Assembly (NCBI RefSeq): GCF_014237455.1
Contig: NZ_JABZFL010000008.1
Coordinates: 1-42,883 of the forward strand
Length of the DNA: 42,883 nt
Origin: Desulfobacula sp.
Lineage (GTDB): Bacteria > Desulfobacterota > Desulfobacteria > Desulfobacterales > Desulfobacteraceae
Direction: 5' to 3'
The notes below the pieces were generated by a model. It saw only the letters and a program-made list of their open reading frames with translations, did not search any database and was not told the origin of the DNA. Position numbers and translations under genes: made by a program. Within the stretch, counting starts at the first letter, position 1. Each line of letters begins with the position of its first letter. This document shows positions 2,167 through 37,000 of this stretch, one piece after another.

Positions 2167-2201
2167 TTAAAACTCTCTTTATAATTTTCTATATTTTATG
2201 A

Positions 2202-5146: not shown

Positions 5147-5156
5147 GAAATAATAC

Positions 5157-6718: not shown

Positions 6719-6740
6719 AAAATTTTCCCATTTATTTATT

Positions 6741-20735: not shown

Positions 20736-22316
20736 CTAAATTAAACCCAGTATCTTCCACCATACTGCTGCAACCACTACTAAAACCGTCAACAAAATCG
20801 GCGTGGCAACCAAGCCGACCCTTGTCAGGTCAGATGATTTAAAATACCGGTAACTGTATGAAATGGCATTGGGAGGACAGCCGATAACCAGCAGCATGGC
20901 AAATGATGTGGCCATTCCCAGGCAAAGCGCCAGGACCACTGGATTAACCCCTTCAAGCTGTGCCATGGGGATAACAATGGGAAGGATCAAGGCGGCTGCG
21001 GCAACATTGGCCATGGCATTGGTTACCAGGGCTCCGAAAACACCCACACCAATGAAAAGAACCAGCCAACCTTTTCCCTGGATCAAAGGAAAGAATAAAT
21101 TGGCAAAATAATCTGCTGCTCCTGAATATCCCATGGCAAGCCCCAGTGAAATCCCGCCGCCAAATATAAACAGGGCGGTTCCCCATTCCAGGTTGTCATT
21201 GATATCTCTCCACTTTAATACTTTGAACAATACCAGGGCAGCCACCCCCAGCATGCCGGTTACGGAATAATCAATGCCATGGAGCCCCTTGGTCAGCCAG
21301 AAGGCAAAGGAAAGGCCAATAATGGCCAATGTTTTTTTCTCAAGTATTGTCATGGGACCCAAATCTTCATCAAACTCCGGCAACTTGTATTTTAGGTTTG
21401 GTCTATAAACCATGTATACAATTAATACGGCAATGGGCGTTGTAAGGATGGCCGCGGGCATGGCATACATTATCCACTCAAAAAAGGTAATCTCAATTCC
21501 GGTAAATTCTTTTAAAAAAGCCGCTGATACCATACAGCGCCCCCCTCCGATGAGGCTTCCCATGCCGCCGCAGGAACAGGCAAAGGGCAGGGACAGCATC
21601 ATGAACTTGGCCGTATTGGTGTGGGGTTCAATGCCGGCCGCCCGCATCAGGGGCAGCATGGTAACGATTCCTATGGCACAGGCGGCTGCATCATGCATGA
21701 ACGATGATGAAATCCCAAGCCCTATGGCAATAATAAAGGTAAATCGGGTAATACTGTTCCCGGCTTTTTTGATAATATAATATCCCAGCCGTTTGGTTAT
21801 GCCGGCCTTGTCAAGGGAAATGGCAAAAATAAGGCAGCACATGATAAAAATAACCACCGGGTGCATATAAGGCGCCCATGCATTTTTTACATCGGTAACC
21901 TGCATGACAACCAGGAAGACCCCGATGCAGATTGCGGTTATTTCCAAGGGGATGGGCTCGATTACAAATAATATCACAAGAACCGCAAGAATTGCCAGGA
22001 AGCGTTTTGCCTTTGGCGAAAGCCCGTCAACATAATCTACCCGGACCTTGTCTAAATTTAAATCTTTTGCTTTTTGATCTAAAAATTTTGCAGTAGCTTC
22101 AAGTGACCCCGGGGCCTTTGCCTTTAAAATATATGATTCTGTTTTTATTTCTCCTTCAGGAACAACAGCAAAATGTTCACTCACATTCTGCATGAGTATT
22201 TTGCCTTCATCGCCAGTAATCTTAAATTGTGTTCCTTCCGGCCTTGGCAGCAGGAAGACGATAACACCCACTAACAAAGCAGCACAGAGTTTAAATCCAT
22301 TTGTCTTATAAAACAT
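20736..22316 (-). CDS. SLC13/DASS-like anion permease with an extracytoplasmic insertion
   Basis: This 526-residue protein has about 11-12 membrane segments and matches the DASS/SLC13 family in layout. After the first membrane helix (about 8-24) comes a hydrophilic stretch of about 75 residues (28-103) before the next helix at about 105; by topology it should be outside the cytoplasmic membrane. The two signature sites read SSSFMHDAAACAIG and TNAMANVAAAALILP instead of the usual SNTxTA, again suggesting an altered substrate site. GCPPNAISYSYRYF near the end parallels GAAPNAIAYDSKQF of the other permease in this window. AAGGAG lies 7 bases before the ATG. It is embedded in a minus-strand operon with four kinases or hybrids, three receivers, a CBS protein and an NtrC-type regulator. 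The substrate is unknown. Confidence 0.82.
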   Translation of the reverse strand: MFYKTNGFKLCAALLVGVIVFLLPRPEGTQFKITGDEGKILMQNVSEHFAVVPEGEIKTESYILKAKAPGSLEATAKFLDQKAKDLNLDKVRVDYVDGLSPKAKRFLAILAVLVILFVIEPIPLEITAICIGVFLVVMQVTDVKNAWAPYMHPVVIFIMCCLIFAISLDKAGITKRLGYYIIKKAGNSITRFTFIIAIGLGISSSFMHDAAACAIGIVTMLPLMRAAGIEPHTNTAKFMMLSLPFACSCGGMGSLIGGGRCMVSAAFLKEFTGIEITFFEWIMYAMPAAILTTPIAVLIVYMVYRPNLKYKLPEFDEDLGPMTILEKKTLAIIGLSFAFWLTKGLHGIDYSVTGMLGVAALVLFKVLKWRDINDNLEWGTALFIFGGGISLGLAMGYSGAADYFANLFFPLIQGKGWLVLFIGVGVFGALVTNAMANVAAAALILPIVIPMAQLEGVNPVVLALCLGMATSFAMLLVIGCPPNAISYSYRYFKSSDLTRVGLVATPILLTVLVVVAAVWWKILGLI

Positions 22317-22390: not shown

Positions 22391-22789
22391 TTATTCTTCA
22401 AATTTGTGCTGATAGGCCTGTTTGATTTTTTCAATCAACTCCGCCAACTCACAGGGTTTGGTCAGATAATCAAATGCGCCTAGGGAGATCCCTTCCATAG
22501 CAGCTTCCTGTGAACCATGCCCTGTCAAAAAAATCACAGGCAGATCAGGTGCCATTTTTTTTATTATTTTTAAAACTTCAATCCCATCCATGTCTTCCAT
22601 TTTCAGATCCAGAACCACCACATCAAATTCATTTTTACGAAGAATTTGTATAGCCTCGGTACCGGAGAAAGCCTTGGTTGCGTGGATAGCCCGCTTTGAC
22701 AGCCTGTTGGCCAGAACATTTACATACCCTTTTTCATCGTCAACAAGCAGGACTTTGATGACAGTTTCGTCTTTACTATTCCGGCTCAT
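22391..22789 (-). CDS. Receiver-only response regulator
   Basis: This 132-residue CheY-like receiver has the acidic pair in VLLVDDEKGY, phospho-acceptor Asp in VVVLDLKMEDMDGIE, Thr in VIFLTGHGS and Lys in FDYLTKPCEL. A frame opening four codons earlier (22801) is possible, but GAGGGG lies about 5 bases before the ATG at 22789, so this start is preferred. It is one of two adjacent receivers directly downstream of the dCache kinase. Confidence 0.86.
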   Translation of the reverse strand: MSRNSKDETVIKVLLVDDEKGYVNVLANRLSKRAIHATKAFSGTEAIQILRKNEFDVVVLDLKMEDMDGIEVLKIIKKMAPDLPVIFLTGHGSQEAAMEGISLGAFDYLTKPCELAELIEKIKQAYQHKFEE

Positions 22790-22805
22790 GACACCCCTCA
22801 TTTGT

Positions 22806-23237
22806 TTAAGCCATCCGGCCTGAAATTTCCTTTATTCGGGCTTCAGTAATTTTTTCTTCATGTATTCTCTTCTTTTCCACAGCCTCATTGACCTTGGTTA
22901 CCAGCACATCAATGTCACAGGGCTTCATCAGGTAATCAAATGCGCCCAGTTTCATCCCGTCAATCGCTGTTTCAACCGTGGCATGACCGGTGAGCATGAT
23001 CACCTCCACAAGTGGAAATTTTTTTTTGATTTCAACCAAAGTTTCTATACCATCCATACCCGGCATTTTCACATCAAGAACCACCACCTCAAGGGATTTA
23101 TTGTTTTCAAGCGCCGCCAATGCCTCTTTTCCACTGTAAACAGCAGACACCTTTAACTCTCTTTTTTCGAGACGCTTGGTAATGGTATCCAGAAATGGTT
23201 TCTCATCATCTACGAGCAATAATTTTGTCTTGTTCAT
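22806..23237 (-). CDS. Receiver-only response regulator
   Basis: This 143-residue CheY-like receiver has the acidic pair in LLLVDDEKPF, phospho-acceptor Asp in VVVLDVKMPGMDGIE, Thr in VIMLTGHAT and Lys in FDYLMKPCDID, with a short charged helical tail. AAGGAG lies 8 bases before the ATG. It starts 11 bases after the dCache kinase stop and is the most likely first phosphate acceptor of that kinase. Its sequence is close to the receiver at 39276-39725, whose kinase is also a dCache paralogue. Confidence 0.88.
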   Translation of the reverse strand: MNKTKLLLVDDEKPFLDTITKRLEKRELKVSAVYSGKEALAALENNKSLEVVVLDVKMPGMDGIETLVEIKKKFPLVEVIMLTGHATVETAIDGMKLGAFDYLMKPCDIDVLVTKVNEAVEKKRIHEEKITEARIKEISGRMA

Positions 23238-23248
23238 GTTTATTCTCC

Positions 23249-24979
23249 TTAAATTTCTGATTCACTGTCATTATCTGTATCTTCAATTATTTCTTCCTGA
23301 AACGGTATCCATATGCGAAATTTGGTTCCAACACCCACCTGGCTGTGGACATCTATTTTACCACCCATTTTTTCAATAATGCCATAGCAGATGGATAGCC
23401 CGAGACCTGTGCCTTTGCCCACGGCTTTTGTGGTAAAAAAAGGATCAAATATCCTGTTAAGATTATTTTTAGGAATGCCGGGCCCGTCATCTTCCATGGA
23501 AATCACCAGTTTATTTTTTTCAATGGTACTGACCTTGGTTTTGATTTTTATTGTTCCCCCGGTTTTTTCCATGACGTCAATGGCATTATTGATTAAATTT
23601 AGAACTACCTGCTGCAATTCAGACGGAGATATCCTGATATAAGGAATTCCCTCATTCAGACTTGTTTCAATGATAACATTGTTATACCGCGCTATTTTGG
23701 CCGTAAGGGAAACCATTTCCATGATGACTTCATTGACCTGGACATCATTTATGGTGGAATCTGTTTTTCTGGCAAAGCTGAGCAGCTTATGGGTGATCTC
23801 TTTGCACCTTTTGCCCTGGGTGTTGATCTGACGCAGCGCCCGGTTGAATTCATCAAGATTCTCACATTCTTTTAAATCCTCTTCTTCAAGAAGATCCCCT
23901 ATCCATCCGGCCTCTTCAACCATTATGGCAACCGGATTGTTTATTTCATGGGCAATGCCTGCAGCAAGTTCACCAATCGTGGCCAGTTTTCCGCTTTCAA
24001 CAACCTGTTCGTTCATGACTTCGCTCTTTTTGTCTGCACTGGAAATAAGCTTTACAATATTTCTGGGAAGAGTGAACGCGACCGAAAGGATGGCAACGCA
24101 TCCGAAAATAAATATGACCAGGGCAAGAAGCTGTGTTTTCCATAAATCACGGAAGGCATCGTTCAAATCCTGACGAAACACCATTAACCAGTCAATATTT
24201 TTAAGTCTTGATGTCACACATAAATATTTATTCCCCAAGGCATCCTGTCTTTTCGCAAAAATCGCTTCATTTTTTTTATAACAATCACTATCCATCATCA
24301 ATGCAATAATTGATTGTTTGAGTCCCACATTCGTTTGGGTTTGCAATTGGCCTTTACTATTAATAAGAAAGGCGATGCCTGTTTTCCCGATATGAATATT
24401 CTCCACCAGGGAATTAAAGGCCCCGAAATTGATGGTCGACCGTAAAGTATAATTAGAACCATTTGATTTAACCTTGACGGCAATAATAAAATGAGGATGC
24501 CCCCTTAAACCGGCAAACACATCACTGATATAAAAAGGTTTCTCACTTGCTTTTATAAACCATTCAGCGTCTGAGTAATCCGCATTTTCAAATCTGAACG
24601 GGCCTTCATACGCAAACTGGATACCGTTTTCATTGACCAGTCCTAAATCTGTAAACACATCTCCATATTCTTTTTTTAATAATTCCAGGTTCTTTTGCAG
24701 GAATATCTTTGGTGATTGTTGTTTGCTGTCAAACTGCCGGGCCAGATATCGGATATTTCCTAGTTTTTCCGACAAAAAGGTATCAATATTCTGAGTGTGT
24801 TTTTGAACTAGTTCTGAAATGTGGGCCTGTATTTTTTCTGTATAGGTCAGGTTAAATCGATAAACAAGAATACCGGTAGTCAATATCATGGGGGTAAAAG
24901 AAACAACCAGTATCAAAACCATTATTTTTCTTGTCAATATATGATAAAATGCTTTCCGATCTATTAAGGATTGTTCCAT
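23249..24979 (-). CDS. dCache-type membrane sensor histidine kinase
   Basis: This 576-residue kinase has a membrane segment at about 18-39, an extracytoplasmic region of about 240 residues, a second membrane segment at about 285-308, HisKA (GELAAGIAHEINNPVAIMVEEAG) and a full HATPase domain (LNLINNAIDVM, DDGPGIP, FFTTKAVGKGTGLGLS). The extracytoplasmic part resembles double-Cache sensors: AEWFIKASEKPFYISDVFAG, HPHFIIAVKV and GKTGIAFLINSKG are typical stretches. Such domains bind small ligands such as organic or amino acids. It is the first gene of the minus-strand module, with a sigma-54-like promoter about 60 bases upstream. The kinase at 39758-41509 is a clear paralogue along its whole length. 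AAAGGA precedes the ATG. Confidence 0.9.
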   Translation of the reverse strand: MEQSLIDRKAFYHILTRKIMVLILVVSFTPMILTTGILVYRFNLTYTEKIQAHISELVQKHTQNIDTFLSEKLGNIRYLARQFDSKQQSPKIFLQKNLELLKKEYGDVFTDLGLVNENGIQFAYEGPFRFENADYSDAEWFIKASEKPFYISDVFAGLRGHPHFIIAVKVKSNGSNYTLRSTINFGAFNSLVENIHIGKTGIAFLINSKGQLQTQTNVGLKQSIIALMMDSDCYKKNEAIFAKRQDALGNKYLCVTSRLKNIDWLMVFRQDLNDAFRDLWKTQLLALVIFIFGCVAILSVAFTLPRNIVKLISSADKKSEVMNEQVVESGKLATIGELAAGIAHEINNPVAIMVEEAGWIGDLLEEEDLKECENLDEFNRALRQINTQGKRCKEITHKLLSFARKTDSTINDVQVNEVIMEMVSLTAKIARYNNVIIETSLNEGIPYIRISPSELQQVVLNLINNAIDVMEKTGGTIKIKTKVSTIEKNKLVISMEDDGPGIPKNNLNRIFDPFFTTKAVGKGTGLGLSICYGIIEKMGGKIDVHSQVGVGTKFRIWIPFQEEIIEDTDNDSESEI

Positions 24980-25036: not shown

Positions 25037-25052
25037 TACAAGATACGTGCCA
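25037..25052 (-). promoter_or_regulatory. Sigma-54-like -24/-12 promoter of the dCache kinase operon
   Basis: Read on the minus strand the site is TGGCACGTATCTTGTA. The -24 half is a perfect TGGCACG and the spacing is right, but the -12 half is TTGT rather than TTGC, so this is a near match. It lies about 58 bases before the kinase start at 24979. Confidence 0.55.
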
Positions 25053-25108
25053 GGCAAAAAGCGGAGCCCATACAAGCGATAACCTATTAAAAAAACAAAA
25101 AAAGTGCC

Positions 25109-25157
25109 GTGTAAAAATATCTGACGGCATTGATATATATGTCAGTTATTTTTACAC
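25109..25157. promoter_or_regulatory. Near-perfect 17-base inverted repeat, candidate activator site
   Basis: The left arm GTGTAAAAATATCTGAC (25109-25125) and right arm GTCAGTTATTTTTACAC (25141-25157) pair at 16 of 17 positions around a 15-base centre. Each arm contains the 15-base element GTAAAAA-n-A-n-CTGAC also seen at 25389-25403 and 33846-33860. The dyad lies about 60-105 bases upstream of the left-facing sigma-54-like promoter, a usual distance for NtrC-type activator sites. Confidence 0.6.
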
Positions 25158-25367
25158 CTTGCAAAATAAGCCGACCAATAGTAAATAAATCGGTCTATGG
25201 CCGCTCTGAGTCACAAAACCTTAATAGCAAAAAAATAATAGCATATTCAGGCGTATCATTCACAGCATTTTCCGAAATAGATGTGGGAAAAATTTCGAGC
25301 CGAAATATTGGCATCACGAACAAGGCCATCAAAATAATCTGGTTTTGTTCTTCGAATATTTTCAAAA

Positions 25368-25406
25368 ATCGTTCTTTTTTTACATGCCGTAAAAAAACCT
25401 GACGAT
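25368..25406. promoter_or_regulatory. Candidate upstream activator dyad of the hydrogenase promoter
   Basis: TTTTTTTAC (25375-25383), a 5-base spacer and GTAAAAAAA (25389-25397) form a perfect 9-base dyad. It is extended by ATCGT (25368-25372) and ACGAT (25402-25406). The right half reads GTAAAAAAACCTGAC. Its centre is about 115 bases upstream of the -24 element at 25501. A very similar dyad precedes the trehalose operon (33827-33860). Confidence 0.6.
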
Positions 25407-25499
25407 CATCAAAATAAATGCCACTGCATCATTCCCCTTATTTAATTAAAAACTGTTTTATTTCAATCAGTTATGAATTCGTAAATTTATTATCTTTTT

Positions 25500-25514
25500 T
25501 GGCATATCTTTTGC
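25500..25514 (+). promoter_or_regulatory. Sigma-54 -24/-12 promoter of the hydrogenase operon
   Basis: The site reads TGGCATATCTTTTGC, followed by TTT: GG at 25501-25502 and GC at 25513-25514 with the obligatory 10-base spacing, close to the consensus TGGCAC-N5-TTGC. Transcription would begin near 25526 and leave a leader of about 150 bases. This implies control by an NtrC-type activator. Confidence 0.78.
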
Positions 25515-25676
25515 TTTATTATTTAAATAAATCAAAAAATCTAAACTAAAGGGGACCCCAGCAAAACCATAAATAAAGCATGTATTGAAATGATTTAGAA
25601 ACCATTGCAAAAATTATTTCTTTCTCAATTTTATCAGTACCTAACTTATAACCTAAATTCAGAAAGGATTTTAAAA

Positions 25677-26714
25677 ATGCTGTTTAAAACAATAAAAAAA
25701 CAAGCTTTTTTCGACTTCTATTTTCCGGATTTCCAATGTGTCGGACCTAAAAAAGTCGGAATAAATAACAACGGCAAGCCGATTTATCAATTCCTGCCCT
25801 TTTCCTCTTTTGATGAAATAGACCTTGATTACGAAACAACCGAATATTCAGCCAAGACCTATTTTCTTCCGTATAAAGAGACCCTTTCTTCTTTTGAGTT
25901 TAAAGAGGATGACTGGACCCAGAATATTAAATACAGCACCCGGCCCAGGGTGATTATCGGGCTGCATCCCTGCGATATAAACGGGTTGATTAAGCTTGAT
26001 AAAGTTTTTGAAAAAACCTTATTTCCGGACCCCTATTATATTACAAGACGACAAAATACATTTGTTGTGGGGATTGATTGTAAAAAACCCTGTGACGGTG
26101 GATTTTGTTCTTCGGTGGGTTCAAATACGGTGACCCATGGGTTTGATTTATTCTTAACCGATATCGGGGATCGATATTTCGTGAAAATCGGATCGGACCG
26201 GGCGTTTAATGCACTCCAAAAAATTAAAACCAGTGAAATTACCAAAAATGATAACGAGCTTTATCTTCAAACGAGAAACAAATTTGAGGACGGGTTTGAA
26301 AAAACCGTGCGTGTGGAAAATCTTCCCAACCTGCTCGATATTGAATTTGAATCCGATGTTTGGGGAAAATGGGGGGACAAATGTTTGAGTTGTGGCACCT
26401 GCGCCATGGTTTGCCCCACCTGCTATTGTTACGGCATTACTGAACATATCTCCATGGATTTTAATAAAAGCGATAAAATCAAACAACTTTATTCATGCAA
26501 TCTGAATGATTTTGCGCAAGTTGCCGGAGGGCATAATTTCAGACCCGAACCTGCCACACGCCTCAAATATCGTTATTATCATCAACACCGCGGGTTTGTG
26601 GAATCATTCGGGCAGCCACTGTGTGTGGGTTGTAATCGTTGCGGACGGGCATGCCTTTCCGGCATCAATCCGACCGATGTTATTTCCGATTTACAAAGGG
26701 AGCAAAAACGATGA
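25677..26714 (+). CDS. hydB: Group 3b NiFe hydrogenase beta (iron-sulfur) subunit
   Basis: This 345-residue soluble iron-sulfur subunit is of the sulfhydrogenase beta/anaerobic sulfite reductase A type. Two [4Fe-4S] motifs lie in the last third: [12 protein letters not shown] and [11 protein letters not shown]. The N-terminal part, with [16 protein letters not shown] and [15 protein letters not shown], is typical of this family. It passes electrons between the flavoprotein gamma subunit and the small subunit. A longer frame begins with TTG at 25605, but the ATG at 25677 has AAAGGA 8 bases upstream and the extra residues are not family-like. It is the first gene of a four-gene operon; the next gene overlaps it by 4 bases. 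Confidence 0.9.
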
Positions 26715-27619
26715 AAAAAATTATGGTCCCGTACGACATAAGGCACGAAACGGATATGGTGGAACCACTCGATTTCAATCGGCGCAGCCGACTGAAGGAA
26801 GTGGACAGATGCTTTAAAGCTGAAATAACCAATGTGATCCGCCTCACTGATATGGAAAAACTGTTCCAGATAAGAATGGTAAACGATAAAGACTGGGAAC
26901 GGTTTGTTTTTCTTCCCGGACAATTTGTAATGCTTGAGTTGCCCGGTTACGGTGAAATACCCATCTCATTTTCAAGCTCTCCGTCTATTAGAAGCACCAT
27001 TGAGTTGTGTATCCGAAAAGCCGGGAAAGTGACCCAGGCGCTTCACAAAGCCACTCGTGGTGCCATTGTAGGACTTAGAGGCCCCTTTGGTACTTATTTT
27101 CCCATGGAACGGATGAAAGAAAACAACATTCTTCTCATCGCCGGTGGACTGGGACTGGCGCCTTTGCGAGCACCGATCAGTTTTGTGATTGAAAACCGGG
27201 CCGACTTTAAAGAAGTCAATATCCTGTATGGAGCAAAAGAACCTTCACAGCTTCTTTTTGATTACCAGTATGAAGAATGGCATCGTATTGATGATATTAA
27301 TCTTGAGGTAATTGTGGAACAGCCTGACAAAAAATGGATCGGACCGGTCGGTTTAATCACCAAGCTTTTAGATGATATCAAAGTAGTACCGGACAAAACG
27401 TATGCCATTGTTTGCGGGCCGCCCGTCATGTTTAAATTTGTATGTAAACGGTTAAGCGAGATGGGAGTCCCCATGCAGCGGATGTTTGTATCCCTTGAAC
27501 GCAGGATGCACTGCGGCATTGGGAAATGCTGCCGGTGTAATATCGGTTCCACTTATACCTGTTTAGATGGTCCGGTTTTTGATTTCTGGACGGTCATGAA
27601 TTTAAAAGAAGCCATTTAA
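26711..27619 (+). CDS. hydG: Group 3b NiFe hydrogenase gamma (FAD/NAD(P)) subunit
   Basis: This 302-residue flavoprotein of the ferredoxin-NADP reductase superfamily has an FAD-binding part with [22 protein letters not shown], a nucleotide-binding part with [16 protein letters not shown], a CGPPVM stretch, and a C-terminal [2Fe-2S] motif CGIGKCCRC plus a later Cys (TYTC), as in PyrK and sulfhydrogenase gamma subunits. It links the hydrogenase to NAD(P)H. The start at 26711 is preferred: GGGAG lies upstream and the ATG overlaps the beta subunit stop (ATGA). Whether NADH or NADPH is preferred cannot be read here. Confidence 0.92.
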
Positions 27620-27634
27620 TGAAAGGATATAACC

Positions 27635-28393
27635 ATGAAATATCTGGGCATTGAACCCCAAAAACCAAAAATTGCAGTTTTTGATTTTACTTCCTGTGAG
27701 GGATGCGAACTTCAATTGCTGAACAAAGAAGAAACCCTGGCTGATTTTCTGAATGCGGTCGAGATCATGTCTTTCCGGGAAGCATCCTCTTCAAGTTCAG
27801 ACGATTATGACATCGCCCTGATTGAAGGCGCGGTTTCCCGAAATGATGAAGTGAAGCGGCTTGAAAAAATCCGTAAAAATGCAAAAGTGCTGGTTGCACT
27901 GGGCAGTTGCGCATGCTTTGGCGGCGTAAACCGGTTAAAAAATGAATTTGATTTAAAATCTGCAAATAAGGAAGTATATGGCAATAACCCGAAGGAAACG
28001 ATAAATGTCCGGGCAATAAAGGATATTGTACCGGTGGACATTGAAATTCCCGGATGTCCGGTATCAAAGGCCGAGGTGGAATCCCTCATATGTCATGTAG
28101 TATGGGACAGCCCTTTTCAACTCCCTGTTTACCCGGTGTGCGTTGAATGCAAACAGCGGTTTACAACCTGCCTGTTTGAGAAAGGGCAACTGTGTCTGGG
28201 GCCGATTACCAGAGCTGGCTGCAATGCCCCCTGCCCTGCCGGAGGACAGGGATGCTGGGGATGCCGGGGGCCTGCTGTTGAACCGAATTATGCGTCATTT
28301 TTTACCATTGTCAAAGAAAAAGGATTCAGTGATATTGAACTCAAAGAAAAATTGAATTTTTTCGGTGCATTTCAGGAGGTGACCATATCATGA
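27635..28393 (+). CDS. hydD: Group 3b NiFe hydrogenase small (delta) subunit
   Basis: This 252-residue small subunit has no twin-arginine signal, as expected for a cytoplasmic enzyme. Proximal cluster ligands are C21xxC24 (SCEGCELQLL), a Cys in LVALGSCACFGG and one in EIPGCPVSK. Further clusters are served by the cysteine-rich stretch CVECKQRFTTC, CLGPITRAGC, CPAGGQGCWGC near the C-terminus. It relays electrons from the NiFe site to the beta subunit. AAAGGA precedes the ATG, and the large subunit gene overlaps its stop by 4 bases. Confidence 0.93.
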   Translation: MKYLGIEPQKPKIAVFDFTSCEGCELQLLNKEETLADFLNAVEIMSFREASSSSSDDYDIALIEGAVSRNDEVKRLEKIRKNAKVLVALGSCACFGGVNRLKNEFDLKSANKEVYGNNPKETINVRAIKDIVPVDIEIPGCPVSKAEVESLICHVVWDSPFQLPVYPVCVECKQRFTTCLFEKGQLCLGPITRAGCNAPCPAGGQGCWGCRGPAVEPNYASFFTIVKEKGFSDIELKEKLNFFGAFQEVTIS

Positions 28394-29667
28394 AAATAAA
28401 TCTAAACGTAGACGTCCGCCACCTTACCCGTATTGAGGGTCATGGAAATATTAAAATTCATGTGAAAAACGGCGAAATCAAGGAAGCCAGATGGGATGTC
28501 GTTGAGACACCCCGTTTTTTTGAAGTTATGTTGAAAAATAAACATTACACAACCGCAGGGCTTCTGGCGGCCAGAATATGCGGCATCTGCTCCATCAGTC
28601 ACTGTCTGTGCAGTGTTCGGGCCACTGAGGATGCCTTTAAGGTGACGATCCCGGAAACAGCTGTAAAATTACGACTTCTGGCAAAACACGGTGAAACACT
28701 CCAGAGCCATATACTGCATGTATTGTTCCTGGCTGCACCGGATTTTTTCAACGAACCCAGCGTGATCCCCCTGATTGAAAAAAAACCGGAAGTAATCGCC
28801 ATCGCCACCCGGCTTAAAGGCCTGGCCAACCGGCTGTGCGATACTATTGCCGGACGGACAACACACCCGGTTGCCTTCCAGGTGGGCGGCGTAACGATGA
28901 TGCCGCAAAAAGACCACCTGCTCGGGTTACAAGATGAACTAAAACGATCTCTTGATGATTTACAAATAGTGGCAGACCTGTTTTCCACATTTACACTCCC
29001 TGATTTTACCAGGGAGACGGAATTTGTATCCCTCAAAGGGAAGAAAGAATACCCTTTTATCGGCGGATCATTGATATCCAGTGACGGTGTTGAGCATAAA
29101 GAGCAGGACTATCGGCCCATGACCAATGAATATGTAGACAAAAACAACACATCCAAGTGGTCTAAGCTGTCCCGAGAATCATATGCTGTCGGTGCACTTG
29201 CCCGATTTAACAACAACTCCGAGCTACTTCATCCAAAAGCAGCCGAAGTTGCCGCATATCTTGGCTTAAAACCTGTCTGCCATAATCCGTTTATGAACAA
29301 TGTGGCCCAGCTGGTTGAATGCTTTCATGTGGTCCATGAAATAATCTGCTTGATTGATGAACTGGTTGACTCCGGTCCGGGTGAAACCATGGCGAAAGTG
29401 ACGCCGAAAGCCGGTGAGGGTGTCGGCGCGGTGGAAGCCCCACGCGGAATTTTGTTTCATCACTATAAATATGACAAAACCGGGCGAATAGAAATGGCCA
29501 ATTGCGTAGTACCCACCACACAAAATAATGCAAATATTCACCACGACATAAAAAGCCTTGTCAAAAAATTTGCCATGACAAAGGAGATGACTGACAAAAA
29601 ACTAGAACTTTTATGCTCCATGCTGGTTCGCTCCTATGATCCGTGCGTTTCCTGTTCAGTGCATTAA
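28390..29667 (+). CDS. hydA: Group 3b NiFe hydrogenase large (alpha) subunit, without C-terminal extension
   Basis: This 425-residue catalytic subunit carries all four NiFe ligands: the N-terminal motif RICGICSISH (C64, C67) and the C-terminal motif DPCVSCSVH (C419, C422). The coding sequence stops immediately after His425, so there is no peptide for a maturation protease to remove. Most NiFe hydrogenases carry such an extension after this His or Arg; natural lack of it is known in some other groups. The enzyme would reversibly couple H2 to NAD(P)H in the cytoplasm. No hyp maturation genes or protease gene are in the window. AGGAGG lies upstream of the start. Confidence 0.95.
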   Translation: MKINLNVDVRHLTRIEGHGNIKIHVKNGEIKEARWDVVETPRFFEVMLKNKHYTTAGLLAARICGICSISHCLCSVRATEDAFKVTIPETAVKLRLLAKHGETLQSHILHVLFLAAPDFFNEPSVIPLIEKKPEVIAIATRLKGLANRLCDTIAGRTTHPVAFQVGGVTMMPQKDHLLGLQDELKRSLDDLQIVADLFSTFTLPDFTRETEFVSLKGKKEYPFIGGSLISSDGVEHKEQDYRPMTNEYVDKNNTSKWSKLSRESYAVGALARFNNNSELLHPKAAEVAAYLGLKPVCHNPFMNNVAQLVECFHVVHEIICLIDELVDSGPGETMAKVTPKAGEGVGAVEAPRGILFHHYKYDKTGRIEMANCVVPTTQNNANIHHDIKSLVKKFAMTKEMTDKKLELLCSMLVRSYDPCVSCSVH

Positions 29668-29842
29668 ATTAGGCCTTAAATAGAGCCGGGTGCTGAAGTT
29701 CCGGGAGAAATACGAAAATGCTCTTTAACTCAGGATATAGCGGGGACAATCACTATAAAATTTCTGAAAATGAGAATATTTGTTGGCATTTATTTTTTTT
29801 CCGTGTATAGAGTTAAAAATAATAACAACCAAAAATTAGCGT

Positions 29843-29876
29843 TGGCAAAAGCACGCGACGTCGAATGCTTTTGCCA
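29843..29876. terminator. Perfect 11-base hairpin between hydrogenase operon and cstA
   Basis: TGGCAAAAGCA (29843-29853) and TGCTTTTGCCA (29866-29876) form an 11-base stem; the 12-base loop contains a CGACGTCG palindrome. There is no immediate T-tract. It may end the hydrogenase transcript or act as a regulatory site for cstA, whose start is 54 bases downstream. Confidence 0.45.
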
Positions 29877-29929
29877 TGATTTATAGTAATCTTTATTTTT
29901 TATACAGATAAATATAAGGAGGTTATTAA

Positions 29930-31645
29930 ATGAGTGCACTAGTAATCATGGTTGTTGCGTTTATAGGTTATATCCTGATGTATAACTTATATGGAAAATT
30001 CATCGGGCAAAAAATTTTTAAGTTATCCCAGACGGCAACGGTTCCTTCCGTTGAACTGGAAGATGGTATGGATTATGTTCCCACGAAAAAAGAAGTGATT
30101 TTCGGGCATCATTTTACATCCATTGCCGGAACCGGGCCCATTGTCGGACCTGCTATAGCCATTATCTGGGGATGGGTGCCGGCATTGATATGGGTATTTT
30201 TCGGAAGCATTTTCATGGGAGCGGTTCATGATTTTGGCGCATTGATTATCTCCATGAGAAATCAGGGGAAATCCGTTGCTGATTATACTTCAAAATATGT
30301 CAACGCCCGCACCCGGTTTTTCTTTTTTTTAGTTGTGTTTTTAGAACTCTGGATTGTGATTGCCATCTTTGGTCTGGTTATTGCCGTGGTGTTTTCCATG
30401 TATCCGTCATCGGTATTCCCGGTCTGGTGTGAGGTAGCCATTGCCCTTTACCTTGGACATGCCATTTATAAACAGGGGAAAAATATCTTAACCTGGTCCA
30501 TTATTGCTGTGATTCTAATGTATATCACGGTGTTCATCGGTATTTACATTCCCATTAAAATGCCGGTTGTTGCCGGGATTCCAGCTACGGGTGTATGGAC
30601 AATTATTCTCTTGGCCTATGCCTTTATTGCTTCTACCCTTCCTGTTACAACCCTGCTCCAGCCCCGTGACTTTATCAACTCCCACCAGCTGATGATCATC
30701 ATGGTTCTGTTGATGCTGGGTGTGCTTCTTTCCGCTTTTGGCGGAAATCTTCATATCGTAGCACCGGCAATTCAGACAGCACCTGCAAAGGCACCGCCCA
30801 TGTGGCCCTTCCTGTTTATCACTATTGCCTGCGGCGCCATTTCAGGGTTTCATTCCCTGGTATCCTCAGGAACCTCGGCCAAACAGGTCAGGTATGAGAC
30901 TGATTCTTTATTTGTCGGTTATGGTTCCATGCTCATGGAAGGGGCTCTTGCCACACTGGTAATCATTGCCGTGTCTGCTGGAATCGGTATGGGGTATGTG
31001 ACCAAATCAGGTGAAACCCTGATGGGGGTGGCAGCCTGGACAACCCATTATTCTTCCTGGGCAGCAGCAGCCGGTCTTGGCTCTAAAATAGCGGCTTTTG
31101 TAAACGGATCTGCCAATATGATTGCCTCCACCGGGTTGCCCAACAGCGTGGCTGTGGTTATCATGGGGGTGTTTGTGGCATCTTTTGCTGGAACCACCCT
31201 GGATTCTGCCACTCGTATCCAGCGCTACATTGTTTCTGAGCTTTTCGGCAGTTTAAAAATGAATTTTCTCACCGGCAAATATATAGCTACTTTTATAGCC
31301 GTGGCAACTGCACTGGCACTTGCCTTTGCAACAGGCGCCGGTGGAAAGGGTGCTCTAAAACTCTGGCCCTTGTTTGGTGCGGTCAACCAGACTCTTGCAG
31401 GCCTTGTCTTGATTATTATTACGGTTTACCTGAAAACCAAAGGCGGCATGAAATGGTTAATATCCGGTATTCCAGCCGTATTTATGATGGTTATGACCAT
31501 ATGGGCGCTTGCACTGAATCAGAGCAAGTTCGGTACTGCCGACAATACACTGCTACAAATAGTGAATGGATTAATACTCCTGCTGGCTATCTGGATCGTT
31601 GTTGAAGGTGTCATTAAATTTATGAGCATGAAATCTGACTCCTGA
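29930..31645 (+). CDS. cstA: CstA-family transporter
   Basis: This 571-residue membrane protein of about 15-16 segments has clear CstA features near the N-terminus: GHHFTSIAGTGPIVGPAIAIIWGW, followed by GAVHDFGALIISMRNQGKSVADYTSK. It belongs to the family of the E. coli carbon-starvation protein and the pyruvate transporter YjiY/BtsT but is shorter (about 700 residues in E. coli), a size seen in other bacteria. It probably moves a small carboxylate such as pyruvate, or peptides, across the cytoplasmic membrane. A strong AAGGAGG lies 7 bases before the ATG. It heads a group of four plus-strand genes. No sigma-54-type promoter was found upstream. Confidence 0.9.
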   Translation: MSALVIMVVAFIGYILMYNLYGKFIGQKIFKLSQTATVPSVELEDGMDYVPTKKEVIFGHHFTSIAGTGPIVGPAIAIIWGWVPALIWVFFGSIFMGAVHDFGALIISMRNQGKSVADYTSKYVNARTRFFFFLVVFLELWIVIAIFGLVIAVVFSMYPSSVFPVWCEVAIALYLGHAIYKQGKNILTWSIIAVILMYITVFIGIYIPIKMPVVAGIPATGVWTIILLAYAFIASTLPVTTLLQPRDFINSHQLMIIMVLLMLGVLLSAFGGNLHIVAPAIQTAPAKAPPMWPFLFITIACGAISGFHSLVSSGTSAKQVRYETDSLFVGYGSMLMEGALATLVIIAVSAGIGMGYVTKSGETLMGVAAWTTHYSSWAAAAGLGSKIAAFVNGSANMIASTGLPNSVAVVIMGVFVASFAGTTLDSATRIQRYIVSELFGSLKMNFLTGKYIATFIAVATALALAFATGAGGKGALKLWPLFGAVNQTLAGLVLIIITVYLKTKGGMKWLISGIPAVFMMVMTIWALALNQSKFGTADNTLLQIVNGLILLLAIWIVVEGVIKFMSMKSDS

Positions 31646-31655
31646 TGATAAATAG

Positions 31656-31690
31656 TATAATCCGGGAGAAATGATTTCTCCCGGATTATA
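31656..31690. terminator. Perfect 16-base hairpin after cstA
   Basis: The left arm TATAATCCGGGAGAAA (31656-31671), a 3-base loop (TGA) and a fully complementary right arm (31675-31690) form a very stable stem 10 bases after the cstA stop. No T-tract follows, so it may be an attenuator or mRNA-stabilising hairpin that sets cstA expression apart from the three downstream genes rather than a full terminator. Confidence 0.6.
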
Positions 31691-31702
31691 TGATAATTTG
31701 AA

Positions 31703-32134
31703 ATGCAACCGATACTTAAGAGACAATTTATTATAATCATTTTGCCAGCAGTGGTCCTTTTTCTGGTCTTTGGTCTGGCAAGAGAATTGAATTTTATCAA
31801 GCCCGGGCAGTTTGTCATTCCTTCTGTTCTGCATTCCGTGCTATTTATTTTATCCGCCATTACTGCCATTGCAGGACCCCTTTTTCTTCGAACCCTTTTT
31901 GCCCATTCCATGCGGGAGAAAACCCAGGTTCCGGCCAAAGAATTTTTATCTTTTCAAAAAAAAAATTTATGGCTGTCACTGGTTACGCCGTATTTTGCCT
32001 TTGTAGCTGTTTTATGTGATTTCCCCAGATTTTATGCAGCAGCCATCGTGCTGATGGCCCTGTATGCAGTATATTATTATTTTCCGTCTCAAAAACGAAT
32101 TGATTTTGACCGAAAAATATTCAGGGTAAAATGA
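31703..32134 (+). CDS. Small membrane protein of unknown function
   Basis: This 143-residue protein has four likely membrane segments (about 8-25, 38-62, 88-106 and 110-127) and short charged loops. No family was recognised. It lies between cstA and a small soluble protein, and its stop overlaps the next start by 4 bases, so it is part of the cstA-linked operon and could be a partner of CstA or of the ArsA-like ATPase. The ATG lacks a good ribosome-binding site. Confidence 0.7.
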   Translation: MQPILKRQFIIIILPAVVLFLVFGLARELNFIKPGQFVIPSVLHSVLFILSAITAIAGPLFLRTLFAHSMREKTQVPAKEFLSFQKKNLWLSLVTPYFAFVAVLCDFPRFYAAAIVLMALYAVYYYFPSQKRIDFDRKIFRVK

Positions 32135-32442
32135 TCAGACCAGGAACATATATCCTTGATATCATCGGAAGAATGAAAAAACGCCTTACAGGCATCTGGC
32201 AGGTGGCTGATGAAGTGGCAAGACACAAGGCGGTTGAAACTATTGAGGCGGAACAGGAAGAGCTGGAATATATCTTTGCCGTTCTGGTACAGGGAACATT
32301 CATTGGAATGCCGTCTCCACCCGTACAGATCTGCATGGATCTTCTCCCTTTAATGGAAAAGGATTTGGTGTTGCTTCTTGAAAGGGTGGACACAGCCAAT
32401 GAACCATTATCCAGGCTGTTTTCCGTATTTGATATAGGATAA
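32131..32442 (+). CDS. Small soluble protein of unknown function
   Basis: This 103-residue, mostly helical and charged protein was not recognised. RLTGIWQVADEVARHKAVETIEAEQEELEY looks amphipathic, and the second half is LPLMEKDLVLLLERVDTANEPL. Its start overlaps the upstream membrane protein gene (ATGA) and CAGGG precedes it. It ends 5 bases before the ArsA-like gene. The tight packing supports a real gene that works with the ATPase. Confidence 0.7.
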   Translation: MIRPGTYILDIIGRMKKRLTGIWQVADEVARHKAVETIEAEQEELEYIFAVLVQGTFIGMPSPPVQICMDLLPLMEKDLVLLLERVDTANEPLSRLFSVFDIG

Positions 32443-32447
32443 AAATC

Positions 32448-33386
32448 ATGACTGAACTTCAAACATTATTTTTCTTAGGCAAGGGCGGAACCGGAAAATC
32501 AACGACGTCCGCACTTTTGTCACTGGTTCTTATGGAAAAAGGCAAAAAAATACTTCTGGCCTCTTTTGATGATGCCCACAACCAGTCTGATATTTTTCAG
32601 ACGGATTTTTCCGATAAAGCGTGTACGCTGGGGCCTTGCCTTGAAGTCCTTCAAATTGACCGGGATAAAGAAATCAAGCAGTATTTAAAGAAAACCGCTC
32701 AAAATGTTAAAAACAGTTATGCATATTTGACCGCCTTTAACCTGGACAATTATTTTGATATTTTAAAGTTTTCACCGGGCATGGAGGAATATGCTTTGGT
32801 TACCGCTTTCATGAACCTTCAAACCCGGTATAAGGGATATGATTACCTGATCATTGATATGCCGCCGACAGCCCTGTCATTAAGATTTTTTAATTTGCCT
32901 GCCCTGTCATTGATATGGATTGACCAACTTGAAAAACTGCGAATGGAAATTTATAAGCGAAAAGAAATTATTTCCAAAATTAAATTTGCCGGAAAAGAAT
33001 TTGAACGGGATAAAGTCCTGTCCAGGATCCGGGAAATCAAATCCGACTATCAGGCCCTTAAGGATATTTTTGAAGATCCCCAAAGATCCAAGTTCTTTGT
33101 TGTATTCAATCAGGATGTGCTGTCTGTGGCTGAAACCAGACGTATCCTTGACCAGCTTAATTCCTTGAACATTGAGGTAAAGGAACTGATCTGCAATGAT
33201 CGGATGCAGGAGGAGCCAAAAGAAAAAAATATTGAAAATGAATTTTCACCCATTCCCATCCAGCACATTCCTTACTCACCTTCTTCCTTAATCGGGATGT
33301 CTGCATTGAAATATCATATTTCTTCATTCAATCTGACGTTTGATGAAATTTTTAAAAAGCCTATCATTAAAGCATCAGACATTTAA
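32448..33386 (+). CDS. ArsA/GET3-family ATPase
   Basis: This 312-residue soluble P-loop protein has the deviant Walker A motif FLGKGGTGKSTTSA at about 9-22, a switch-like segment FDDAHNQSDIF and a DYLIIDMPPTALSLRFF segment matching the ArsA/GET3 'DTAPTGHTLRLL' region, with Met-Pro-Pro in place of the usual Ala-Pro. It is the last gene of the cstA group and follows the small protein by 5 bases with AGGATA upstream. In this family the ATPase drives oxyanion pumps or delivers membrane proteins. No arsenite pump or ArsR is nearby, so an arsenic role is unlikely. A role in assembly or insertion of the membrane partners encoded upstream is a reasonable but untested idea. Confidence 0.82.
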   Translation: MTELQTLFFLGKGGTGKSTTSALLSLVLMEKGKKILLASFDDAHNQSDIFQTDFSDKACTLGPCLEVLQIDRDKEIKQYLKKTAQNVKNSYAYLTAFNLDNYFDILKFSPGMEEYALVTAFMNLQTRYKGYDYLIIDMPPTALSLRFFNLPALSLIWIDQLEKLRMEIYKRKEIISKIKFAGKEFERDKVLSRIREIKSDYQALKDIFEDPQRSKFFVVFNQDVLSVAETRRILDQLNSLNIEVKELICNDRMQEEPKEKNIENEFSPIPIQHIPYSPSSLIGMSALKYHISSFNLTFDEIFKKPIIKASDI

Positions 33387-33590
33387 CCGGCTTTTTTCTA
33401 AGGGAAAAAGCCCTTCGGGTTTTGTATGAAAATAAACAATTGGAAAAGTCATCTGATGAATGGACAGACACCAATTAAAATTTTTATTTTGAATGCCAAT
33501 GTTTGGCGCAAATCCAGCTAACCCGTTTAGATGTAAGGCAGGAAACATGAAGGGGACTTTGTCTCTTCGTTGATCTGCTGTATGATTCAT
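33375..33590 (-). CDS. Doubtful small ORF with a strong ribosome-binding site
   Basis: A possible 71-residue protein begins MNHTADQRRDKVPFMF. AAAGGAG within the palindrome AGGAGCTCCT ends directly at its ATG, giving a good ribosome-binding site, but the product matches nothing recognised and its last codons overlap the arsA-like gene tail and the terminator on the other strand. It is the only hint of coding in this gap and may be chance. Confidence 0.25.
   Translation of the reverse strand: MNHTADQRRDKVPFMFPALHLNGLAGFAPNIGIQNKNFNWCLSIHQMTFPIVYFHTKPEGLFPLEKSRLNV
33389..33425 (+). terminator. Terminator-like hairpin after the ArsA-like gene
   Basis: GGCTTTTT (33389-33396) pairs with AAAAAGCC (33405-33412) two bases after the stop. 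An overlapping second hairpin (AAAA-G-CCC, TTC loop, GGG-TTTT) reaches to 33424. Two alternative stems ending in TTTT fit a terminator. Confidence 0.55.
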
Positions 33591-33826
33591 AGGAGCTCCT
33601 TTATTAAAAATTACTGATAGACAAATCCATATAAATTGCCTATACTCATATCATTACTCCTGTTTTGGTTCACCACCACTATCACCGATGGGTGGAATTA
33701 TCATTTCATTTCAATATTTGAAGTTCAAAATTCATGCCAGGGACAGGCATTTAATTTAAAAGACCTGCATAAAGGAATCCACCTGCCATATCTCGAATTG
33801 ATGGAGTACAAACAAAAAAATGTGGG

Positions 33827-33860
33827 GTCATTTTTTTTACATCTTGTAAAAAGATCTGAC
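33827..33860. promoter_or_regulatory. Candidate upstream activator dyad of the trehalose promoter
   Basis: TTTTTTTTAC (33831-33840), the spacer ATCTT and GTAAAAA (33846-33852) form a dyad, flanked by GTCA (33827-33830) and TGAC (33857-33860). The right half reads GTAAAAAGATCTGAC and is followed by ATCATCA, as at the hydrogenase dyad. The centre is about 140 bases upstream of the -24 element at 33983. Confidence 0.55.
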
Positions 33861-33981
33861 ATCATCATAATTTTTAATGGGAATCCTTTGATTGTTCATA
33901 GGATAAAAATACTATTCGCACATAAAACATTAGTCCTTTTGACGGTTCAACATTCCAGGTGCTAATGCTTTTATGCAGTAA

Positions 33982-33996
33982 TGGTATGATAGTTGC
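33982..33996 (+). promoter_or_regulatory. Sigma-54-like -24/-12 promoter of the trehalose operon
   Basis: The site reads TGGTATGATAGTTGC followed by T-rich sequence: GG at 33983-33984 and GC at 33995-33996 with the required 10-base spacing. The -24 half is TGGTA rather than TGGCA. Transcription would begin about 40 bases before the ATG at 34047. Confidence 0.6.
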
Positions 33997-34046
33997 TTTT
34001 TAAATATTCATTCAGATTTTTACTGGATCAGATAAGGATCTTTTTT

Positions 34047-37000
34047 ATGGCAACCAGGAAACAAATACTTAACCCTGAATTGTATGATGCTGTCCTGTTT
34101 GATCTGGACGGTGTGGTTACCAGAACAGCGGATACCCATGCAACTGCATGGAAAAAGCTTTTTGACGAATACTTGAAAAAAAAAAGCGGAACCGATAATT
34201 ATATCCCCTTTAACCTTAAGGAGGACTATATAAGATATGTGGATGGAAAACCTCGCAACAAAGGGATTAAATCTTTTATCGCCTCTCGCAGTATTGATAT
34301 TCCCTATGGTTCTGTCCATGATGCGCCTGATAAAGAAACCGTCTGCGGGCTGGGCAACAGGAAAAACCAGCTTTTTTCTGATTTGCTGAAAAAAGAAGGC
34401 GTGAAGGTTTATAAATCCACAATTGATCTTATTCGTCAGTTAAGAAAAAATAGATTTAAGACAGCCATTGTCAGTTCAAGCAAAAACTGCCGACAAATCC
34501 TTAAGATTGCAAATGTTGAAGCTTTATTTGATGTCAGAGTTGATGGAGTTGTATCTGAAAGCCTTGGTCTTACCGGCAAACCTGAACCGGATACTTTTCT
34601 GGAAGCAGCCAGAAGACTGGATACTGATGTGAATAGATGTGTGGTGGTGGAGGATGCCTTATCCGGTGTGGAAGCCGGGGCAAAAGGTGGTTTTGGAATG
34701 GTTATCGGTATTAACCGTGGAAATCAGGCAAAAAAACTTAAGCAAAAAGGGGCTCACCTGGTAGTTAACGATCTTTCTGAAATTGAGGCAGGAATGGAAA
34801 AAGAGACCGGCTGGGATCTAATATATTTAGGGTTTGACCCTGAAGATGAAGGACGGCGGGAAGCAATGTGCGCCTTGGGAAACGGGTATTTTGTCACCAG
34901 AGGCGCAGCCCCTGAAGCAAAGGCTGATGATGTGCATTATCCGGGCACCTATCTTGCCGGAGGGTATAACCGGCTTAAGACTGAAATCGCCGGTAGAATA
35001 GTTGAGAATGAAGATCTGGTTAATATTCCCAACTGGCTCTGTCTCAATTTCCGTATCCCTGGAGAGGAATGGTTTCAGCTAAAAGATGTAAAAATTCTTT
35101 TTTACAAACAATCCCTGATTATAAAAAAAGGGATACTTAACCGCACCATATGCTTTCGAGATAAAAAAAACAGAGAGACACACATTTGTCAACACGCATT
35201 TGTCCATGGAGATCAGATGCACCGGGCTGCGCTGAAAACCATTATTACGCCCTTGAACTGGGAAGGTAAAATAGAGATCTGTTCTGCTCTGGATGGCAGG
35301 GTGACAAACCAGGGAGTGAAGCGCTATCGGGATTTGAGCAAGCAACATTTTGATCGGGTTGATTCCCGCCACATTGACGAAAAAAGCATGGTGTTAAAAA
35401 TGCGCACCAATCAGTCATGTATTGATATTGCAATGGGTGCAAGAACCAACATCTTTCTTCAAAAGAACCTGGCTGCTATTAAATCTGTTCCAGCTGACAA
35501 ACCCGGTGGATATGTTGCAAAGAATTTTATTGTAGATGTGAGTAAGAGAGATGATCTTACAGTGGAAAAACTGGTCTGTATCTATACATCCCGGGATAAA
35601 GGTATTTCCGAATGCTTATTAGAGGTGGAAAATACTATTGCAAATGATGTTGAAAGTTTTGATAGTTTATTAAAATCCCATGTTACAGCCTGGGAACTTT
35701 TATGGCGCAAATTCGATGTCACTCTTGAACTGGACAATAGTGGTATTGAGCAATATACACAAAAAATTATCAGATTGTATATTTTCCATTTATTACAAAG
35801 CTCTTCTGTACATTCCCTGGACATTGATGTGGGTATGCCGGCCCGTGGCTGGCATGGCGAAGGCTACAGAGGACATATATTCTGGGATGAAATGATTATT
35901 TTCCCATTTTTAAATTACCGGGCTCCTCAAATTACAAAAACCCTGCTCATGTATCGTTACCGACGACTTGAAGAAGCCCGGCGTGCAGCCAGGAAGGCAG
36001 GCTGCAAAGGTGCAATGTATCCATGGCAGAGTGGCAGCAGCGGAAGAGAAGAGACACAGCAGATGCATCTTAATCCTGAATCGGGTAACTGGCTTTTTGA
36101 CTACACTTATCTGCAGCGCCATGTAAACAATGCAATAGTTTATAATATCTGGCAGTATTTTCAAGCTACCTATGATACAGCATTTTTATCTTTTTACGGA
36201 GGTGAAATAATAATCGAAATCGCACGGTTCTGGGCAAGCATTGCAACATATGATCCTGAATTTGATCGATATGAAATCATGGGTGTAATGGGGCCTGATG
36301 AATATCATGACGCTTATCCCGGAGCAGACAAACCAGGCTTGAACAACAATGCCTATACCAATTTGATGGTCATGTTTGTTATGGATCAGGCGCTGAACCT
36401 GCGACATGTTATTTCTGAACAGGACTGGGAATATTTAAAAAAAAAGCTTGAGGTGGAAGATAAAGAACTTGAACAATGGAAAAAAATAAGTCGAAGGATA
36501 AAACTGGTATTCCATGGAGGTGGAATTCTCAGTCAGTTTGAAGGATATGAAAATTTAAAGGAATTTGACTGGGATGGTTATAAAAAAAAATATGGGAATA
36601 TCCGGCGCCTTGACAGGATTCTTGAAAAGGAAGGAGACAGCACCAATAACTATAAACTCTGCAAGCAGGCAGATGTCTTAATGCTTTTATATCTTTTCAG
36701 TGCTGAAACTTTAAGAAAGATGTTTAAACGTCTTAATTATACTTTTGACAAGGAGTTGATCCCCAAAAATATCAACTATTATTTAAACCGAACTACAAAC
36801 GGGTCATCCCTGGCACTGGTCATTCATGCCTGGATTGAAGCACGGCAGGCAAGAGAACGGTCATGGGACTTTTTCAGCCGGGCACTTGAGACGGATATGG
36901 TTGATGACCGAACCGGAAGCACCCGGGAAGGTATTCATCTGGCTGCCATGTCAGGGTGTATTGATATTCTTCAACGGGGCTATGCCGGTCTGGAAATACG

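Follow-up and report, generated by a model that had tools for sequence, protein, structure and literature searches.

The window analysed here, that is, the whole stretch of 42,883 nucleotides of contig NZ_JABZFL010000008.1 (C106 in our numbering, in which genomes are denoted G, loci L and contigs C), belongs to a Desulfobacula sp. genome of 3.48 Mb that is 97.8% complete. Three predicted operons face outward from, or lie behind, short A-rich repeats in this window (Table 1). The first runs leftward from 24979 to 15561 and encodes a dCache histidine kinase, two receivers, a DASS symporter, a receiver-kinase, another receiver, a CBS-domain protein, a further kinase and an NtrC-type activator; the second encodes a group 3b-like hydrogenase and, further downstream, CstA, a pair of small proteins and an ArsA/Get3-type ATPase; the third encodes a HAD-GH65 fusion and a trehalose-phosphate synthase. 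A first-pass annotation of the sequence proposed that a shared 15-base element upstream of sigma-54 (-24/-12) promoters places all three operons under a common activator, with the protein encoded at 15561-16985 as the candidate. Here we examine this element, its promoters and its activator.

The exact 15-mer, GTAAAAA-n-A-n-CTGAC, was found by pattern search at all four annotated places in the window (25111, 25389 and 33846 on the plus strand, 25141 on the minus strand) and occurs seven times in the genome, where the reversed pattern does not occur at all; summed over 38 genomes, there are 54 exact copies versus 14 reversed ones. With up to two mismatches, the window contains 9 matches, compared with a mean of 1.89 and a maximum of 6 in shuffled sequence. 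Alignment of sites from the window and from relatives (31 sites, mostly picked because they had a -24/-12 promoter close by or a partner site; a 32-site version was also made) shows that the conserved element is longer, comprising 26 bases, TTTnCA-N3-TGTAAAAA-n-A-n-CTGACA, with three conserved blocks, TTTnCA, TGTAAAAA-n-A and CTGACA, at fixed spacing. The dyad TTTTTTTAC-N5-GTAAAAA that had been described at 25389 and 33846 is present at both sites, and relatives keep its TTTnCA-N3-TGTAAA portion, with CTGACA as the third block, but the ATCATCA tail assigned to the same structure is not generally conserved among the aligned sites of the relatives.

The middle and right blocks together form TGTAAA-N5-CTGACA, and the left block mirrors the middle one. 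We prefer TGTAAA-N5-CTGACA as the putative main site over the alternative dimer TTTACA-N3-TGTAAA because the promoter-proximal members of site pairs (in G000, G006, G007, G010 and G012) keep it without the TTT of the left block; the exception is G008, where the proximal member retains a variant left block. In the window, such a pair precedes the kinase operon: sites A1 and A2 face each other 30 bases apart, A1 being the proximal member that is devoid of the left TTTnCA block and is offset by 30 bp from A2, and A2 being the full element (expect value, E, of 4e-5 in this genome with model R1). The same facing pair was identified in G006, G008, G012 and G010 (30 bases) and in G007 (31 bases), that is, in six genomes in all, with the sites about three helical turns apart.

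All three of the annotated -24/-12 promoters are present in the window, and equivalents of the leftward one, TGGCA-n-(G/A)TAT-(C/T)-TTG(TA/AT), precede the corresponding operon in 12 relatives. When the element was searched jointly with a -24/-12 promoter (GG-N10-G(C/T), 81-141 bases downstream), the genome yielded four matches, of which three fall in the window and the fourth on contig C64, and the reversed control yielded none. Across 58 genomes, the joint pattern produced 29 matches versus 2 for the reversed control (the 29 were partly inspected, and some, e.g., those in G004, G021 and G038, may be due to chance), and an off-register version, one base short, produced 2. Another line of evidence comes from 70 distinct sites at loci from other genomes of the order Desulfobacterales, fetched around the strong sites of a search of 194 genomes, to which a weight matrix derived from 22 Desulfobacula sites was applied. 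A strong promoter on the same strand lies within 200 bp of 58 of these 70 sites, compared with 512 of 11,800 random positions (4.3%) in the same loci; 16 sites have a strong promoter on the opposite strand, and 46 promoters fall in the bin at 94-99 bp from the site. This spacing constitutes an independent test because the loci were chosen by the element rather than by the promoter, with the reservation that model R1 was built from mostly promoter-bearing sites, a few of them in the same genomes. The predicted enrichment of the element at sigma-54 promoters is thus borne out, as is its conservation, which extends across the genus and into other families of the order.

Of the 35 open reading frames (ORFs) of the window that were scanned, just one encodes a sigma-54 activator, the protein of 15561-16985, in agreement with the first-pass annotation. 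It combines a receiver with an AAA+ domain containing GAFTGA and a Fis-type helix-turn-helix (HTH), and the receivers encoded separately in the operon consist of a single domain each. Strong sites were detected in 42 of the 194 genomes of the order and an ortholog of the activator in 115; the ortholog is present in 40 of the 42 site-bearing genomes versus 75 of the 152 others (Fisher p 8.8e-9, a value that ignores kinship). Outside the genome of the window, the distance to the ortholog is at most 25 kb for 21 of 66 sites, and the gene run ending in the activator gene has a site at its head in 13 genomes (G000, G002, G006, G008, G009, G011, G012, G015, G022, G023, G047, G049 and G056), in each case with a promoter-like sequence between the site and the first gene. 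In two more genomes, the site lies just past the ortholog (81 bp in G140 and 276 bp in G099). The recognition helix starts with SRPT in all 30 readable orthologs of the 32 sampled (two were unreadable) and reads exactly SRPTLHxKI in 24, whereas SRPT was found in none of nine other NtrC-like proteins from the fetched loci. Computationally, the NtrC-type protein encoded at 15561-16985 is associated with the element.

Table 1. Predicted regulatory sites and genes of the window (PWM, position weight matrix score)
Feature	Coordinates	Strand	Remarks
Activator site A1 (predicted)	25101-25126	+	core TGTAAAAATATCTGACG at 25110-25126; exact 15-mer; PWM 21.3
Activator site A2 (predicted; full 26-base element)	25140-25165	-	PWM 35.0; promoter 87 bp downstream
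Activator site B (predicted), before hydrogenase operon	25379-25404	+	PWM 31.4; promoter 95 bp downstream
Activator site C (predicted), before trehalose operon	33836-33861	+	PWM 32.5; promoter 120 bp downstream
-24/-12 promoter, putative sulfate-uptake/two-component operon	25037-25052	-	TGGCACGTATCTTGTA; -12 GC has T for C
-24/-12 promoter, hydrogenase operon	25500-25515	+	TGGCATATCTTTTGCT
-24/-12 promoter, trehalose operon	33982-33997	+	TGGTATGATAGTTGCT
Second DASS symporter	13417-14889		27% identical to the 20736-22316 symporter
NtrC-type activator (receiver, sigma-54 interaction domain with GAFTGA, Fis-type HTH)	15561-16985	-	Pfam PF00158, PF02954; last gene of run
Histidine kinase (4HB_MCP sensor)	16987-18465	-	Pfam; usually adjoins activator gene in relatives
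CBS-domain protein	18474-19052	-	Pfam
Single-domain response regulator	19087-19527	-	Pfam
Receiver-histidine kinase	19556-20722	-	Pfam
DASS family symporter	20736-22316	-	Pfam; TIGR00785 above cut-off
Two single-domain response regulators	22391-23237 (22391-22801, 22806-23237)	-	Pfam
dCache sensor histidine kinase	23249-24979	-	Pfam; first gene of run
Group 3b-like NAD(P)-linked [NiFe] hydrogenase, four subunits (25677, 26639, 27635, 28390)	25677-29667	+	top-scoring models ShyA/ShyB/HydA/HydB, equivalog cut-offs not reached; 3b is our own label
CstA, two small proteins, ArsA/Get3-type ATPase	29930-33386	+	downstream of hydrogenase
HAD-GH65 fusion	34048-37214	+
OtsA-type trehalose-6-phosphate synthase	37256-38773	+	OtsA model 532 bits, cut-off 565

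The predicted regulon in this genome comprises five promoters, which cover the six best matches of a genome-wide model scan, all with E < 0.05 (the next match has E 0.08, and the match at C20:15993 has E 0.125); at L003 (C96:213726), no promoter was seen near the site, and this locus was set aside. In addition to the three promoters of the window, these are a promoter on C64, preceding genes for a dCache kinase, a receiver and a DASS symporter, and one on C20, where genes for CBS-domain and universal stress proteins (Usp) follow TGGCACGGCAATTGCT, which is located 96 bases from the site and is oppositely oriented. Thus, sigma-54 promoters accompany the element at three places in the window and at C64 and C20, as they do at most of the sites across the order. 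The hydrogenases most similar to that of the window among the named loci are encoded on Desulfobacula contigs L057 (94%) and L058 (91%), and a site precedes the orthologous hydrogenase genes in L057/L168, L058/L172, L060 and L061. The site before the trehalose genes recurs in G006 (L168) and G040 (L255), and in G022 the CstA-ArsA genes carry a sigma-54 site of their own. CstA, the two small proteins, one of which weakly matches the cory-CC-star family, and the ArsA/Get3 ATPase form a recurring gene set.

Among 54 proteins encoded downstream of sites throughout the order, Pfam searches identified receivers in 12 and kinase domains in 11, as well as 7 Usp, 5 CBS, 4 DASS and 2 DsrC proteins; dCache kinases number 7. 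The 54 were drawn from 67 downstream proteins after removal of 3 duplicates, 5 frames that were short or doubtful and 5 opposite-strand genes; sites lacking a promoter at the threshold contributed none, and given that the ORFs come from a mechanical caller, errors among the first genes are possible. In genomes of family f22, back-to-back sites, each with its own promoter, lie between divergent genes (L323/L324, L337), for example, Usp-like and Cytidylate_kin2-type ones, and three such genomes have six strong sites each. Sites also precede genes for a Usp and a phosphoenolpyruvate synthase-like protein in G009 (L182, 5952-9141) and for an ADP-forming acyl-CoA synthetase-like protein in G048 (L186, 6505-8943), hinting at carbon-energy targets.

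Next to the putative sulfate cluster, the window encodes a Complex-I/hydrogenase-4-like set (1423-8699: Oxidored_q6, 49-kDa, NADHdh, 4L-like and two antiporter-type subunits), which is also found beside the cluster in G008 and has orthologs upstream of the hydrogenase in L061. G006 (86%) and the genome that we take to be D. autotrophicum HRM2 (58%) likewise encode, close to the cluster, the 430-amino acid protein of 8804-10096, which has no Pfam match.

The operons had been considered to have no obvious direct biochemical link. What had been called a sensor-kinase module is, however, a putative sulfate-transporter cluster, which supplies such a link. A sulfate-uptake locus of Desulfobacteraceae with DASS transporters, two-component genes and CBS genes has been described (PMC11887813), and the first gene run of the window matches it in the kind of gene content; the window encodes CBS proteins, receivers, kinases and two symporters (20736-22316 and 13417-14889). 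Dicarboxylate carriers likewise belong to DASS (PMC5840216); the symporters of the window are putative sulfate carriers, and their mutual identity of 27% equals the value given for TOL2_19410 and TOL2_19470 (PMC5840216). A site with a consensus promoter, TGGCACTGCCCTTGCA, is located in the presumed HRM2 genome ahead of a run encoding, in this order, a dCache kinase, a receiver-CBS protein, a DASS symporter, two small ORFs, another receiver-CBS protein and another DASS symporter; judging by the order of the genes, HRM2_38270 and 38300 would encode the two symporters. High expression at low sulfate is reported for 38300 and 38230 in the section of PMC5840216 on HRM2. The presumed HRM2 genome also has an activator gene followed by a site and by CBS and Usp genes, and near the activator it encodes an ortholog (67% identity) of the 13417-14889 symporter, a gene for which no site was found in the window; this ortholog would be HRM2_40290, which the same section reports as highly expressed at high sulfate (PMC5840216). 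No sigma-54 site, activator or wider regulon was found reported for the cluster in a literature search and term searches of PMC11887813, PMC5840216, PMC4641369, PMC3333781 and PMC12316311, which extended neither to supplements nor to most subscription papers.

In its layout, the element is reminiscent of the sites of enteric NtrC: TGTAAA-N5-CTGACA is likewise a 6-5-6 arrangement, and the paired sites are about three turns apart. Enteric NtrC sites are of the form TGCACC-N5-GGTGCA, and the two at glnA, separated by about three turns, precede a -24/-12 promoter. The half-site letters, the extra TTTACA block and the targets described here are different. Mycobacterial DosR, a LuxR-type regulator, acts without sigma-54 and responds to a hypoxia/CO signal via heme kinases. 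It places Usp proteins and hydrogenases under one response regulator upon respiratory limitation (PMC8125079), a likeness in targets that we take as an analogy only. The NmpRSTU system of Myxococcus xanthus, in which the NtrC-like NmpR controls an oxygen-utilisation regulon through the site GCGCA-N5-TGCGC (PMC11841059), is similar in being a multi-kinase two-component system that ends in an NtrC-like regulator, in its paired sites upstream of sigma-54 promoters, in the control of its own components together with CBS and Usp proteins, and in the logic of acceptor limitation. Targets of this type recur here in the CBS-Usp operon on C20, in the 7 Usp and 5 CBS proteins among the 54, and in the run that contains the activator. 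The comparison was made by regulon features rather than by orthology to the 15561-16985 protein, which we do not class as NmpR, its associated element being TTTnCA-N3-TGTAAAAA-n-A-n-CTGACA; furthermore, NmpR uses oxygen and a heme-binding kinase, and no hydrogenase was found in the main text of PMC11841059. Many regulons of NtrC-type two-component systems have been delineated in the sulfate reducer Desulfovibrio vulgaris (PMC4641369), and term searches of the main text of that work gave no match for hydrogenase, trehalose, CstA, universal stress or sulfate transport. For the sulfate-uptake cluster, PMC11887813 names WalR-type regulators; its main text yielded no NtrC and a single mention of sigma54 elsewhere, and its cluster section contains no activator site and no link to hydrogenase or trehalose.

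Taken together, these observations make it probable, in our judgement, that the elements are enhancer sites of the NtrC-type regulator encoded at 15561-16985, that this regulator controls a regulon of five promoters, and that the signal is sulfate shortage. The kinase encoded at 16987-18465, and perhaps the other kinases of the cluster, would phosphorylate the activator, which would then bind the 26-base element about 87-120 bases upstream of the sigma-54 promoters of the window and turn on its own operon (autoregulation), the 3b hydrogenase-CstA-ArsA operon, the trehalose operon, the second sensor-kinase/DASS operon on C64 and the CBS-universal stress protein operon on C20. The signal would be sulfate shortage itself or the consequent fall in energy charge, and the outcome would be more high-affinity sulfate uptake, a hydrogenase route for electrons, and protective and reserve functions. 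Limitation of the electron acceptor is most likely the best explanation of a target set that combines sulfate uptake, a reversible-hydrogenase outlet, energy-sensing CBS and Usp proteins, and trehalose.

Several observations weigh against this reading. With one mismatch, the 15-mer has 28 matches in the genome versus 18 for the reversed control, and under the strict pattern, a canonical promoter lies downstream in only 5 of the 28 relatives' loci that contain an exact 15-mer (L029-L056); because the one-mismatch excess nearly vanishes and so few of these loci show a promoter, the evidence is carried by the longer element and the promoter context, and the 15-mer proposed at the outset is not specific by itself. 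At the threshold used, 12 of the 70 sites across the order lack a same-strand promoter. The -12 element of the activator-operon promoter is non-canonical (TTGTA/TTGAT for TTGCA) in 13 of 15 loci (25037-25052 of the window, L168, L169, L171, L172, L181, L183, L184, L218, L219, L222, L235 and L240), the two canonical loci coming from other families (G023, G056); such a -12 may keep basal amounts of the activator low. Only a single site, with no pair, precedes the operon in G002, G009, G011, G015, G022, G047 and G049, and the hydrogenase genes of L062, L063, L065 and L068 have no site in front. Under stricter filters (E <= 1e-3), 75 of the 115 ortholog-bearing genomes are without a site, some of them having weaker ones; the stretches retrieved around the ortholog in G032, G036, G041, G050, G051 and G054 yielded no site, and G042 and G055 have good sites elsewhere, not around the ortholog. 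With regard to sulfate, there is one ORF more between the presumed HRM2 DASS genes than the locus tags allow; HRM2_38270, probably of the same run as 38300, is unchanged at low sulfate (PMC5840216); 38230 would lie on the other strand, and no site was found for it; and another passage of PMC5840216 has 38300 expressed in excess sulfate. The response regulators of the cluster are described as of WalR type and its transporters as constitutively formed in Ds. variabilis (PMC11887813), and because of this constitutive formation, the signal is to be assigned with caution.

It is precisely the signal in which the most serious alternative differs: with the regulon and the activator unchanged, general energy or redox stress (AMP/ATP, H2, oxygen) might be sensed, sulfate uptake being one output among several. 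Usp and CBS proteins are often targets, oxygen limitation has been proposed for the Myxococcus NtrC-like regulon with CBS and Usp targets (PMC11841059), and the sensor of the adjacent kinase is 4HB_MCP rather than Cache; yet DASS symporters (4) and dCache kinases (7) recur among the 54 downstream proteins, DsrC appears there twice, and sulfate has been proposed as the shared ligand of the Cache kinases of the cluster (PMC11887813), so that we regard this alternative as unlikely, if far from negligible. Considerably less probable is the possibility that another NtrC-family activator, encoded elsewhere, binds the sites, the linked gene being a bystander or a cross-talking paralog. Such activators are numerous in Desulfobacteria (52 in HRM2; PMC12316311), and the ortholog went undetected in two of the 42 site-bearing genomes, G037 and G052; however, the G037 site is weak, with no promoter found, the G052 genome is 85% complete, and the linkage, the co-occurrence and a recognition helix distinct from those of the nine other NtrC-like proteins all point to the 15561-16985 protein. 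That the A-rich repeat is a chance or structural feature of AT-rich promoters (bent DNA or an IHF-like site), as the small one-mismatch excess and the many exact 15-mers of relatives without a canonical promoter might suggest, is highly improbable and already largely refuted by the joint-pattern results (29 versus 2, with 2 off-register) and the tight 94-99 bp spacing, with the seven exact copies versus none and the conserved CTGAC and TG blocks pointing the same way.

More broadly, and as a tentative proposal that we consider possible but somewhat short of probable, Desulfobacterales may have in common a single NtrC/sigma-54 'sulfate-starvation' regulon, the anaerobic equivalent of regulons for oxygen limitation, with targets that would include sulfate uptake, a bidirectional hydrogenase discarding electrons as H2, DsrC, Usp and CBS proteins, and trehalose. 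In marine sediments, this group of sulfate reducers makes a large contribution to carbon oxidation, and the published model of the regulation of their sulfate uptake is itself a proposal (PMC11887813). If the shared regulon is real, sensing of the acceptor would directly switch high-affinity sulfate uptake, and sulfate respiration in these bacteria would gain a defined transcriptional switch. As its site is defined, its activator named and its list of targets short, this scheme is directly testable, and it would tie sulfate uptake to H2 turnover and survival functions.

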